Source: Trebouxia sp. TZW2008 (taxonomy: Eukaryota > Chlorophyta > Trebouxiophyceae > Trebouxiales > Trebouxiaceae). From it: DNA of 64,000 bases. Both the position numbers and the translations under genes were made by a program. Shown here piece by piece: positions 1-64,000 of the stretch; position 1 is the stretch's first letter; each line of letters begins with the position of its first letter. The stretch spans positions 186,001-250,000 of the forward strand of contig BDIU01000049.1 in NCBI GenBank assembly GCA_002118135.1, given 5' to 3'. The notes below the pieces were generated by a model that worked only from the letters and a program-made list of their open reading frames with translations, searched no databases and was not told where the DNA came from.

Positions 1-24
1 ATGTTTGCCACCTGACAGACACAG

Positions 25-238
25 GTACAGGTTGTCAAGGATCCTGAAGCGGTCTCAACAAATAGTCTTGTCATGCTGCAGACAGCCCGCGCTAGGCAGG
101 ATGCGCAGAAGAGGCGGCAGCAGGCAAGCTTGAGCAGAACTATGTCTGTACCCATCAAGTCGTCAGGAGCATTTGGTAGTCCTGCCGCCTCGCCAGCCAG
201 GTCGCCCCTGTCAAGACATCTTGTCAGAGCGTCCTCAG
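25..238 (+). CDS. Exon of an unidentified gene (left-edge partial)
   Basis: An open frame follows an AG acceptor near position 24 and ends at a good donor, cctcag|gtaaaa. The exact acceptor is ambiguous because CAG triplets recur there. The peptide is basic with a Gln/Arg-rich stretch (ARARQDAQKRRQQ), then a Ser/Pro-rich stretch (GSPAASPARSPLSRH). This looks like a disordered regulatory tail, and no domain is recognisable. Support for coding comes from the open frame, the donor and a decayed copy of the same exon end in the following intron. No downstream exon could be identified, so the gene's extent is unknown. Confidence 0.4.
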
Positions 239-284
239 GTAAAACATGCCTCACAACCTGCAGCTCAATCAATTCTGCATGCAA

Positions 285-396
285 GTCTTCAGCAGGACCA
301 CGTCTGTATCAGTCAAGTCAGCAAGGGGCTTTGGCAGAGAAGCGGCCTTGCCAGCCAGCTTGCTTTTACCCAGACATCTGCTTGGAGCATCCTCAG
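285..396 (+). repeat. Decayed donor-side copy of the preceding exon
   Basis: This stretch repeats the second half of the exon ending at 238, including the SRT-SV-KS motif, the Leu/Ser/Pro stretch and the terminal RHL-ASSG followed by cctcag|gt. The two exon ends are 158 bases apart. Indels and substitutions put it in another frame, so it is not a working exon. Confidence 0.6.
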
Positions 397-399
397 GTA

Positions 400-2356
400 C
401 CATGTTGCCGCATTGGTTGAATCATGTCCCTTCGCATGCTTGTGCTAGCCAATGTCAGGGACATAGATAGGCATGCACAGAGACAATCAGCTGCCTTTGA
501 CCAGTGTGACTTTGACATGTAACCTGAATTTGCGAGGCATTCCTGAGCTGACCATGTTATGGTATTTTCCTGGTAGGTGTTGTTAAGTGCCACCTTTGTC
601 ATACTGTCTCTGTGCAGCATGTGAGTGATCACTGCATCATCACTTGCTGTCCAGCTGCCTCAAGTGTACATAAGATGTTGCTGCTTGATCGGTGCCATAC
701 ACTGCATGTTGGCACAGATCTTTGCTGCCAGTTGAGCTGACAGGTCTTGTTTGCTGATGCAGGAATCAGCGCATGAGGGTGTGATGCCAGCAGCAAGGAT
801 TCTTTTCTATACACTGTGTATATTGTTTGAGCATTGAAGACTAAGCCTGTCATCATTGGCAGCATTTGACACAGCAGCCAACATCTCCAATACTGGTGTG
901 CCAGCTGTGTAGTAAACGTCAAAAAGCGACAAATTGCTTGCCCTGGCTATCAGAAATGTGTACCCCGAAAGTGTGACGAGATCTGCTCCGCGTTTGGCAG
1001 AACCAATTTTGATGAATTGTATCATGGTCAAGCTGTTGCTGATGTGTACAAGTTTACAGGGCAGTAATGAGACAGAAAAGTGAGTATGTTTTGAGTCAGC
1101 AATGCACATCATTTCAGCTTTCCTTGCATCCTTGCTGATTCTGTACATAGGTATGAGTGATCAAGCCTCAATTCATTTGTTTTACGTTGGTGTTGTTATG
1201 TTGCTGCTGCTGCAGTTATTGTGGCGTCGTGGGGTAATGTATTGCTGCAGTATTTGCTGCATGTGAACAGGGTGTTATTTGTCAGTTGCGCAAGAAGCTG
1301 TAAAAAGAAAATGCACAATGTCTCCAGCACACGTAGTCTAACATATATATATTTCCCTGACTGACCACTGACCATAGGGTTTTCCCAGCCTTATTGAGTG
1401 TTATGTCATGGTTTGGGGTTCTAGGGGTGACAAAACAGGTAGTCAGATCATTGCATTACTCATGGGGTATGTTTAAAGGTTCAAATCAGCTCAGGGTTCT
1501 GCATGACAGCTGCAGACCGGCCTCAAACCCTTAAAAACAGGGATAGCAGCCCTCACTCCAATCCACTTCATCCTCCCAGCATTCAAGGGTGTAGTTGGGT
1601 GTTCGAGCTTTCACACCTATACACTTACACAAAAAATTGAAAAGGACAGACGTTGTGGTAGCCACAGTGTTAGTTAGGTCATGTGCCCTATGTATGCTGC
1701 TACTTTCGGATGCATCTTACAAGTGACTCCAACAGCAAACAAAATTGTACGTTGCAATTGCCGAAGTGATGCTTACTATCGGGCACAGCCAGCATGTTAC
1801 GTAAAATAGAGCGATCACACAATCAATGACAATTGACAAGCCAAGCATTTGTAGTCAAACAAGCAGCAAGAAATTGCCAAGCCCACTCCAATTGGGTGCA
1901 GCACCATTTCAATACACAGCTACATTTACTACCTCCAGTTCTACCAATACAAAGGCGGACAGCCAACCACAATAAAATGCTAGGCTCACAGCACAGGTTG
2001 ATTGAAGTATGCATATTATGCATCATGTCACACATATGTATGTACTTATAGGGTACTCAAAGACATACTACATTTGCACGACCCCAATGCCAAAGTCTGA
2101 TGATCACTCTATGGAAGAAAGGAACTAGCACTTGGTCAATCAGGTGACAAGCAAAATCATGCAACCTTTGCAGTCACGCACATGGCGGTCGATCATGAAA
2201 ACAAGCAAAGGACAACGACGGGACACGTGCGGGGCGCTGCGGGGCACATTAGTATTAGTCGTTATTTTTTGGATGCTGAGCCCGCAACTCATTCCACCCC
2301 ATAGCATGCAAGCAGAGGCTTCTGGTGGCGCCCATCTGACGATAGCTGGCTGACTG
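400..2356. other. No supported gene
   Basis: Open frames on both strands are short and show no recognisable domain. The stretch holds A/T-rich patches such as a short TA run near 1342 and CTG-rich runs near 1201-1260. I see no RNA gene or clear mobile element in it. Confidence 0.5.
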
Positions 2357-62326: not shown

Positions 62327-62394
62327 CTACAGGTCACGCACACATGCACAAGTCAGTAAATGAGTTCATCGTATCCCACAGTGCTGATACAATG

Positions 62395-62665
62395 GTGCGC
62401 TGACTGCCTCATAAGGGTCGTCACTGCAGTGAGGCGGTTGCAGCAGTCTTGTGGAAAGGTGACGCCGCTATGCTGTGGGCTGTTGTGCTTGCAGTGCTTG
62501 CTGCTCCTGCTGCTGCTGACTCAACACTTCTTCCTCAAATTGCTGCTGCTGCTGCCCTGCAGGCCACGCACACACTCACAAGTCTCCGAATGAGCTCATT
62601 CAATCAGGTCTAGAATGCTGTGGACTGATGCGCTTGCAGCGCTTGCTGCTCCTAAGGTGTCATTG
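62395..62665 (-). repeat. Acceptor-side copies of the exon starting at 62326
   Basis: Positions about 62571-62395 repeat the poly-Gln start, QPTA-region and HSSDDPYEAV segment of exon 62326-62046, about 245 bases upstream. A further short piece (gcagcgcttgctgctcct) lies at 62637-62655. Frames are broken. Confidence 0.8.
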
Positions 62666-62673
62666 CAGCCCAC

Positions 62674-63330
62674 CTGTGATGTCAGCAGGCATGGCTCCGG
62701 AAGGACCTGCCACTGCGGCCGCCCCAGACTCTTCTTCAGCCCGCAGCCCTGCTGTACTGCTCAAATCCCCGTCCGAGGCTATGCTTGTGACAGCTGGCAC
62801 TGTGTTTCCACCAAGCGCACCACCATCACCACCGCCAGGCACTCGTGCAATGCCCTGCAGCCCACTGCTGCTACCATTGCTACCTGCTATGCTGCCACCG
62901 CTGGCTGCCTCTCTGTGCAAGCCTGCTGTATTGCTGATGCTGGGTCCACTGCCAAGGTTTGGTTCTGGGCAGTGGCCACTGCTGCCCAAGCTGGCTGAGC
63001 TGCTGCTGGATACACTGCCAAGATGAGATTTCTGATTTTGGCCATCGCTGCTAGTCAAGCTGCTGCCGCTTGTTGAAGCAGCACCAGAATGCATCTCAGG
63101 ACCAGTCAGTGTGTTGTCAAGTGTGTTGTCAATGCCAGGAGTGGTGCTGGTGACTGTTGGTGAAGTGCTGCTGATGGAAGCTGCTTCAGGGGTGATGCTG
63201 GTGATGGGGGGGTGGCGAAGGGTGGAGGCAGGCTGGGGAGTCATTTGGGGTGGCCCAGCTGCTGCCATGTCTCGAAGGCCTTGGTACAAGGATCTTGGGA
63301 TGTCTAACTTGCCAGAGAGCAGCCGCTTCT
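62674..63330 (-). CDS. Ser/Gly-rich upstream exon, probably the N-terminal extension of cystathionine beta-lyase
   Basis: On the minus strand an exon opens after TGATGCAG at 63331, encodes EKRLLSGKLDIPRSLYQGL then RDMAAAGPPQ, a long Ser/Thr/Gly-rich linker, and ends at ACATCACAG|GTGGGC (62674). It starts in phase 1 and ends in phase 1, exactly what the exon at 62326 needs (G|GC CAG). Splicing the two would give cystathionine beta-lyase more than 215 extra N-terminal residues. The EKRLLSGK block is not recognised. It may be an unrelated upstream gene whose phase matches by chance. More exons lie beyond the right edge. Confidence 0.55.
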
Positions 63331-63419
63331 CTGCATCAGGTACACAAGCTGTCAACAAGCTTTGCTCAGACACAGAATCACATGCTGTTGATGGGCGGGT
63401 GGGGGGAGGGTGGATCTTT

Positions 63420-64000
63420 TGGGGTGGCCCAGCTGCTGCCACGTCTTGAAGGCCTTGGTATGAAGACCCTGGGATGTCCATCTTGCCAGAGAGCAGCCGC
63501 TTCTGTACATCAGGCGCACAGGCTGTTAAAAAGCTTTGCTTAGACACAGGATCATACGCTAGTGACGGGGTTGTGGGGGGGGGGGGGGGAGGCAGCCTGG
63601 GGGGTCTTTTGGGGTGGCCCAGCTGCTGCCATGTCTTGAAGGCCTTGGTATGAGGACCCTGGGATGTCCATCTTGCCAGAGAGCAGCCGCTTCTCTGCAT
63701 CAGGCGCACAGGCTGTTAACAAGCTTTGCTTAGACACAGGATCAAACGCTGGTGACAGGGTTGTGGGGGAGGGTGGAGGCAGCCTGGGGGGTCTTTTGGG
63801 GTGGCCCAGCTGCTGCCATGTCTTGAAGGTCTTGGTGTAAGGATCTTGGGATGTCTATCTTGCCAGAGAGCAGCTGCTTCTCTGCATCAGGCGCACAAGC
63901 TGTTAACAAGCTTTGCTCAGACACAGGATCGAATGCTGGTGATGGGGTTGTGGGGGAGGGTGGCCAGCTGGGGGATGGTTGGGGGCCCAGCTACTGCCAT
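63420..64000 (-). repeat. Acceptor-side copies of the EKRLLSGK exon, 174-190-bp period
   Basis: Copies of CAG|AGAAG(C)GGCTGCTCTCTGGCA start at 63504, 63694 and 63881, with a further partial at the window edge. The working exon starts at 63330 (steps 174, 190, 187). Each keeps LLSGK-DIP-S-QGLQDMAAAGPPQK and about 60 bases of preceding intron (caggatc..acgct..gacgg..gttgtggg). The 63694 and 63881 copies are still open frames and could be alternative exons. Confidence 0.85.

Follow-up and report, generated by a model that had tools for sequence, protein, structure and literature searches.

In a 64-kb window of the genome of the green alga Trebouxia sp. TZW2008 (the whole 64,000-nucleotide stretch analyzed, bases 186001 to 250000 of contig 48 in an assembly of 68.5 Mb and 527 contigs), introns carry diverged copies of the edges of their neighboring exons, here called ghosts. 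A sequence-only reading of the window had proposed that iterative tandem duplication across splice boundaries produces these copies, with acceptor copies lying upstream and donor copies downstream of the working exon. Our analysis indicates that the edge copies are very probably direct tandem duplications, mostly of 70 to 220 bp, that span an exon-intron junction; the working copy is the one that remains attached to its exon, and the spare is predicted to be removed with the intron, which is thereby lengthened. The phenomenon is real and wider than the window, since families of local copies occur in all six blocks of a 232,643-bp sample made up of the window and 168.6 kb from five other contigs (GC content of 49.7 to 50.4% across blocks). 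Coordinates refer to the window unless a block is named.

Local duplication was almost exclusively direct. Self-comparison of the window gave 50 direct pairs less than 1 kb apart versus 2 inverted rows, both palindromes; across the six blocks, 140 local direct pairs stood against 7 inverted rows, all 7 palindromes. In the full sample, 157 local direct high-scoring segment pairs (HSPs; those more than 1 kb or less than 40 bp apart were left out) grouped into 76 families, comprising 44 edge, 19 noncoding, 7 whole-exon, and 6 exon-internal families, with an uneven density that ranged, per 10 kb, from 0.7 to 4.1 families. When the window was simulated once with an order-5 Markov model, no pair appeared besides the self-hit, and in order-3 simulations of the two best genes (20 per gene) the mean number of direct pairs was 0. 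Most copies differ by 10 to 30%, and an assembly artefact is therefore unlikely. The 5-25-50-75-95% quantiles of unit length were 71-112-146-173-368 bp, so that the unit size of 105 to 245 bp given in the sequence-only reading was roughly right. Two further stretches, C130 and C73, were kept out of all tests because they had been chosen for a double match there; local direct repeats of like kind were present in both. The block C1:100001-128643 was poor in local duplications (0.7 families per 10 kb versus 2.5 to 4.1 elsewhere), and it nonetheless holds high-scoring predicted genes.

Exons of two genes in the window were fixed by homology with a spliced protein-to-DNA aligner written for this work, using four proteins of relatives (P0001, P0002, P0241, and P0242, the last two from Trebouxia sp. 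C0005 and C0010, respectively); this yielded GT-AG models of the kinase and of eight lyase exons. The CaMKK-like kinase is 89% identical to the C0005 protein and 86% identical to one of C0010; 23102-23565, which the aligner had split, was taken as one exon. The cystathionine beta-lyase is 91% identical to P0001 (490 amino acids, on a transcript-like 1889-bp contig) and 74% identical to a protein of Coccomyxa viridis. A further 5' lyase exon near 63019-63094, without clean splice sites, is uncertain. The two genes and their ghosts are as follows.

16611..24507, forward strand: CaMKK-like kinase gene (PDB matches; spliced alignment to P0241 and P0242)
16611-16940, 17507-17688, 18392-18644, 19582-19718, 20619-20871, 21498-21715, forward strand: first six kinase exons
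22189-22323, 22707-22802, 23102-23565, 23900-24108, 24371-24507, forward strand: last five kinase exons
17333..17386, forward strand: acceptor ghost of kinase exon 17507-17688 (unit of 152 bp; TGCAG kept)
18056..18355, forward strand: two acceptor ghosts of kinase exon 18392-18644 (unit of 150 bp; ghost junctions near 18092 and 18241)
18765..18839, forward strand: donor ghost of kinase exon 18392-18644 (unit of 187 bp; GTGAG kept at 18832; alignment of the intron part not clear, z of 1.6 and 0.5 in two comparisons)
19251..19507, forward strand: three acceptor ghosts of kinase exon 19582-19718
20191..20618, forward strand: four acceptor ghosts of kinase exon 20619-20871, in a 108-bp array
22010..22097, forward strand: acceptor ghost of kinase exon 22189-22323 (unit of 174 bp)
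57517..62712, reverse strand: cystathionine beta-lyase gene (PDB match; spliced alignment to P0001)
62674-62712, 62046-62326, 61255-61439, 60742-60856, 60277-60459, 58994-59232, 58102-58304, 57517-57656, reverse strand: lyase exons
58696..58920, reverse strand: two donor ghosts of lyase exon 58994-59232 (unit of about 144 bp; GTA kept)
59266..59760, reverse strand: four acceptor ghosts of lyase exon 58994-59232 (AG kept in 4 of 4)
59883..60219, reverse strand: two donor ghosts of lyase exon 60277-60459
60556..60596, reverse strand: short acceptor-side ghost of lyase exon 60277-60459 (unit of 131 bp)
61080..61114, reverse strand: donor-side ghost of lyase exon 61255-61439 (unit of 172 bp)
61510..61613, reverse strand: acceptor ghost of lyase exon 61255-61439 (unit of 165 bp)
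62379..62599, reverse strand: acceptor ghost of lyase exon 62046-62326 (unit of 229 bp)

An array of units of about 177 to 187 bp with a G-rich tract (63195-64000) lies 5' of the first verified lyase exons and reaches the end of the window.

Wider gene models came from a two-strand hidden Markov gene finder, trained on one of these genes and tested on the other. In the last round, training on the kinase only placed 5 of 8 lyase exons exactly (the first round had placed 6), and training on the lyase only placed 9 of 11 kinase exons exactly. At the level of bases, this round reached a sensitivity of 0.95 and 0.98 and a specificity of 0.88 and 0.87, the held-out sequence having been seen during self-training. 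Two earlier gene finders were discarded, one because it over-segmented and the other because it merged genes across strands. For the counts below, the finder was trained on both genes, the kinase and lyase were replaced by their homology models, and 31 of 347 exon entries were dropped as probable ghosts. Predicted genes scoring under 25 were dropped for edges and those under 60 for introns.

If the units are tandem duplications, the intron part next to a ghost junction should be homologous to that next to the real one, and taken over all pairs it is. With splice consensus removed, the intron parts of ghost and exon gave a median z of 3.44 in 40 own pairs versus 0.67 in 160 cross-family pairs, and z exceeded 3 in 22/40 versus 2/160 pairs, respectively (P = 1.4 × 10−12). 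In aggregate, these data support the proposal of iterative tandem duplication across splice boundaries. Intron parts were less alike (0.70 to 0.72) than exon parts (0.84 to 0.86), as would be expected if both intron copies drift while the exon is conserved. One candidate for a non-tandem pair (C20 40941/41065, identical over 59 bp) was dropped, since visual inspection of the 65-bp spacer suggests a third, diverged copy of the unit.

Edge copies were also more frequent than chance placement allows. Random placement on a ghost-free map predicted 17.1 edge and 45.5 noncoding families, versus 44 and 19 observed. Random tandem duplication with no edge preference would leave edge copies as the survivors of selection and of easier detection near a conserved exon. 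Under such a process the side of each copy requires nothing further, and the junction may fall anywhere in the unit, as it does (exon share with a mean of 0.49 and quartiles of 0.34 to 0.63 in 43 units); exon copies also decay more slowly and are found more easily, although the simulated bias was modest. When this bias was modeled by letting exons change more slowly and applying an identical detection score, edge families were expected to make up a share of 0.34 to 0.40, compared with 0.70 observed. Among strong genes (those scoring at least 200), 42 of 52 families were at edges (42:10 versus intron-only, or 0.81; expected 0.47 to 0.53; P = 5.3 × 10−7 and 3.4 × 10−5). In three homology-supported stretches the figure was 17 of 17 (expected 0.49 to 0.51; P = 4.6 × 10−6 and 1.2 × 10−5), two of these stretches being examples from the sequence-only reading and the third (C75) being supported over its glutamate dehydrogenase and GDI parts only. 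Families at 84% identity or more still divided into 25 edge and 10 noncoding. Relative to intron-only units, junction-crossing units therefore occur at about double the frequency predicted by random placement plus decay, and we consider undirected duplication alone an unlikely explanation. The earlier reading had made random tandem duplicates the yardstick for its claim, and edge-crossing families exceed that yardstick with slower decay of exon copies allowed for. Acceptor edges outnumbered donor edges (32 versus 12; P = 0.0037), and geometry alone yields neither this excess nor that of edges as a whole.

The side on which copies lie, in contrast, needs no mechanism of its own. The side rule held for 76 of the 79 HSP-edge records and for 43 of the 46 family-edges, on both strands (exon remnants of less than 20 bp beyond the copy were excluded). 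The three exceptions were two edges of the glutamate dehydrogenase exon model C75 7901-8137 and one of C10 27683-27933, and both exon models contain two copies each. With 12 bases at exon edges masked (exons under 50 bp excluded), 77 ghosts were recovered, of which 66 matched the near-side exon part and 10 the farther part, with 1 tie. By our own grouping, all 13 kinase and lyase families lay at an exon edge on the ruled side and none was intron-only, some of the 13 reaching the edge within 8 bp rather than crossing it well. We do not regard the side rule as a law in its own right; tandem geometry and preservation of the protein suffice to produce it, because only one copy stays attached to the rest of the exon after a junction-crossing tandem duplication. 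Where the unit consists of the end of an intron and the start of an exon, the remaining exon would be joined to the second copy, placing the spare upstream; where it consists of the end of an exon and the start of an intron, the remaining exon would be joined to the first copy, placing the spare downstream. What the rule demonstrates is the tandem nature of the copies and not the existence of a directed mechanism.

The sequence-only reading had listed 15 places (8 acceptor and 7 donor), which fared unevenly. Eight are edge copies of homology-fixed exons (18092/18242, 20192-20512, 59290-59752, 61499, 18750, 58690-58905, 59883-60205, and 61065), and two are backed by gene-finder exons only (27815 and 51638). 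The other five are without a confirmed exon edge: repeated DNA is present at 29131, 63504-63881, 285, and 8225-8625, and at 6580/6765 only the pair 6436-6477/6766-6807 was seen.

Ghosts are probably absent from the mRNA, judging from reading frame and protein comparisons. Edge-unit lengths fell evenly into the three classes modulo 3 (14/16/14 in 44 families), while 5 of 6 exon-internal units were multiples of three; edge units thus show no frame preference where exon-internal units mostly keep the frame. Selection on frame therefore acts on the exon-internal duplications but not on the edge units, suggesting that edge copies are spliced out. All four relatives' proteins follow the working exons, with no insertion matching a whole ghost. 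In models of the kinase and lyase built on these proteins, no new intron was found between duplicated sites, the ghosts lying inside single introns.

Many ghosts nevertheless retain consensus splice sites, as had been claimed. For retention counts, 7 of the 77 ghosts, lying more than 45 bp from the edge, were left out beforehand. Among acceptor ghosts, found without using the edge, AG was intact in 45/49 and the full TGCAG in 31/49, compared with 218/287 (76%) for AG elsewhere in the copied exon (P = 0.007). In scores against an acceptor matrix, ghosts had a median of 6.95 (51 of 57 with an AG within 6 bases), real acceptors 6.86 (n = 273), and other intronic AGs −1.95 (n = 6009). Ghost acceptors have therefore not been purged, with a borderline hint of retention.

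Strength of this order raises the question of how the outer site is passed over. Under exon definition, splicing would choose the inner site, closest to its partner across the exon; a ghost that obeys the side rule would be the outer site and would lose even at equal strength. Under intron definition, a ghost acceptor would be nearer to the donor and would win, making the duplication harmful. Given the abundance of full-strength ghosts, an exon-definition-like choice would be the best explanation. If the outer site is ignored, duplication would be nearly neutral and free to recur and decay. Junctions, acceptors above all, may also be hot spots for the duplication itself. A bolder extension, which we advance tentatively and with more doubt than belief, would have such hot spots in this lineage make introns grow outward by a ratchet, with full-strength outer sites ignored and outer acceptors partly kept by selection.

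Selective retention of ghost acceptors in their own right, as decoys or backups that tune splicing, is improbable. Acceptor AG retention exceeds that at codon positions 1 and 2 of the copied exon (45/49 versus 0.77; difference of 0.15, with an interval of 0.07 to 0.22 over 30 exons), and acceptor ghosts outnumber donor ghosts (56 versus 21). However, chance realignment explains part of this: 43/49 ghost AGs lay on the exon diagonal and scrambled ghosts gave 14.3/49, and the corrected retention of about 0.86 to 0.89 leaves a borderline excess. Donor ghosts showed no excess, since GT was kept in 16/21, compared with 0.77 at codon positions 1 and 2 and with 42/63 elsewhere (P = 0.30).

A functional role for the copies, as alternative or mutually exclusive exons, is very improbable. 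Some ghosts, such as the 20191 array, have long open frames and consensus acceptors, but edge units lack the frame preference such exons would be expected to show, some ghosts contain stops or frame breaks, and relatives' proteins match the working exons. Only 7 of 76 families are whole-exon-like, and at least one of these (8820-9248) reflects a mis-set exon end. Insertion of introners (mobile intron-like elements) near exon edges is so improbable as to be dismissed: their units are of similar size (about 100 to 200 bp), but each copy matches its own neighboring exon, the window has six rows more than 3 kb apart versus about 50 local ones, none of the six at a kinase or lyase exon edge, and a genome search with the 18056-18503 array returned only itself (one array, best candidates scored).

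The claim that such duplication is how introns grow in this genome was too strong, although the copies do lengthen introns. Exons had a median of 143 bp and introns of 378 bp. Introns with at least 40 bp of local copies numbered 58 of 273, and local copies made up 13.5% of intron bases (genes scoring at least 60); edge units accounted for 11,151 of 117,472 intron bases (9.5%), in 40 of 273 introns. The median of these 40 is now 588 bp, and 391 bp with the added units subtracted. Older edge units may have decayed past detection.

Several observations weigh against the account given here. We infer the exclusion of ghosts from mRNA from sequence. Most gene models are predictions of our gene finder, which learned from two genes and then from the sample itself, and the acceptor matrix was trained in part on predicted sites, some ghosts among them. 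An exon definition that depended on long introns would predict that ghost-bearing introns were longer than others before duplication, and they were not (391 versus 344 bp, P = 0.76; 30% versus 31% under 250 bp). Among the younger copies, z fell below 2 in 6 of the 16 pairs with at least 85% identity (including 18578/18765), so that not all are proven full tandem units. The edge excess could arise in part because edge units are lost more slowly, and not because they originate more often. Inside the kinase 17333 ghost, the aligner put 9 bases of the P0241 alignment and 12 of the P0242 alignment; these fill a length difference and were discounted. With the distant protein P0002 it placed 37 bases inside the lyase 62379 ghost; these are the unconserved N-terminus of P0002 and were likewise discounted. 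Finally, in a kynurenine/aminoadipate aminotransferase gene (PDB match; exon end at 8031-8111), the in-frame copy has AAATTG, without a GT, at the expected donor, and frame-broken downstream copies (8282 and 8617) retain AAG/GT; either a different donor is used or the gene is no longer functional, as a pseudogene, may be the reason.

The earlier view that no named system of this kind exists was wrong for the mutational process, which is known as tandem genomic duplication or internal gene duplication and of which a junction-crossing case has been published. In a potato RdRp gene, as here, the duplicated unit spans one intron-exon boundary, but there a cryptic donor in the duplicated exon was activated and created a new intron, whereas here we predict that the intron already present takes up the whole spare copy; unlike in potato, both junction types are hit, arrays accumulate, and local copies occur in six of six blocks (PMC4974935). 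That introns can be gained by tandem genomic duplication is accepted (PMC3443670), under a model from Rogers 1989, Hellsten 2011, and Gao and Lynch 2009 (as cited in PMC4974935 and PMC3443670). That model shares with ours a tandem internal duplication in genes that supplies splice sites, but in it an exonic AGGT segment or a whole intron is duplicated to give new introns, whereas here the junction is crossed and an old intron is lengthened. Introners (PMC9860276) also change intron content genome-wide through short DNA units; they are dispersed families that create introns, whereas the copies here are local and match their own exon.

For splice-site choice, the closest parallel is the exon-centric proximity rule, by which the nearest of equal competing sites across the exon wins (human genes and minigenes; PMC9225289, which cites Reed and Maniatis 1986 for splice-site proximity). 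That rule was shown in humans, whereas ours is a suggestion from genome structure in an alga in which intron length does not predict the presence of ghosts. Among related algae, Asterochloris averages 9 introns per gene (PMC6652019), and the paper on Trebouxia 'A48' uses the word intron a single time, in the title of a reference (PMC12712428). Our literature search, which covered listed titles and abstract openings and whose reach excluded most subscription papers as well as Gao and Lynch 2009 and Hellsten 2011, found no report of genome-wide junction duplication lengthening introns. The scale, the edge enrichment, and the natural series of splice-site competitions appear new.

Here a datable process that is visible in sequence, and that leaves fossils behind, has contributed roughly a tenth of the sampled intron bases; to our knowledge, intron lengthening other than by mobile elements is poorly documented. 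With outer acceptors as strong as the used ones, these loci would directly test the choice of the spliceosome between equal sites, and, if the hot-spot and ratchet reading were true, the genome would be a large natural series of splice-site competition experiments. In practice, gene finders can mistake ghosts for exons, as with the 31 entries dropped above.

Further candidate edge copies in the window belong to predicted genes or to the aminotransferase, in which the open frame runs beyond 9251 and the protein alignment to PDB 4gdy is unbroken there.

8210..8687, forward strand: donor-side copies of aminotransferase exon end 8031-8111 (two copies keep AAG/GT)
8820..9090, forward strand: two ghosts on the acceptor side of the aminotransferase exon that begins at 9141
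27764..27888, forward strand: acceptor ghost of predicted exon 27963-28464 (methyltransferase-like, as named in the sequence-only reading; unit of 147 bp)
51633..51808, forward strand: acceptor ghost of predicted exon 51850-52076 (ABC-transporter-like, by that same naming and our own reading; unit of 212 bp)

A search of the window against Rfam, with gathering cut-offs applied, gave no match to a known RNA. Pfam gave DUF789 as the sole match for 10 long open frames of the window and no match for two frames of 1-15001 (stops as X).

On the other contigs, comparison with solved structures supported full-length Rab GDI, glutamate dehydrogenase, and adaptor beta subunit. Two query stretches of the glutamate dehydrogenase exon model C75 7901-8137 match the same target residues, the model holding two copies. 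A downstream copy, block C75 8194-8370 (C75:28194-28370), is closer to the conserved protein than the modeled exon and may be the working exon there. The predicted exon at block C10 27683-27933 (C10:127683-127933) holds two in-frame 111-bp copies, with more copies outside, and is either an exon-internal repeat or a fused ghost. The predicted adaptor-beta model at block C20 16964-32438 (C20:116964-132438) runs into sequence like a Ty3/gypsy reverse transcriptase, a resemblance judged from its motif, and is probably two genes fused by the gene finder.

Other repeats in the window were dispersed or lay within predicted exons. One of about 180 bp (17077-17253, 50670-50836, and 53882-54060) occurs in both orientations at 67 to 77% identity and is perhaps a small transposable element. 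Another of about 80 to 90 bp lies at 27625-27715, 40488-40564, and 61708-61798, with an (AATG)n stretch adjoining the third copy that we take to resemble the tail of a non-long-terminal-repeat element. At 14059-14207, a 74-bp tandem pair (96% identical) was read as encoding GIAGNEMADKLANQA, which presumably resembles the RNase H motif of long interspersed nuclear elements. Within long predicted exons, 37500-37772 (81-bp units) and 38893-39395 (132-bp units) are in-frame protein repeats, the exon-internal counterpart of the edge duplication process.

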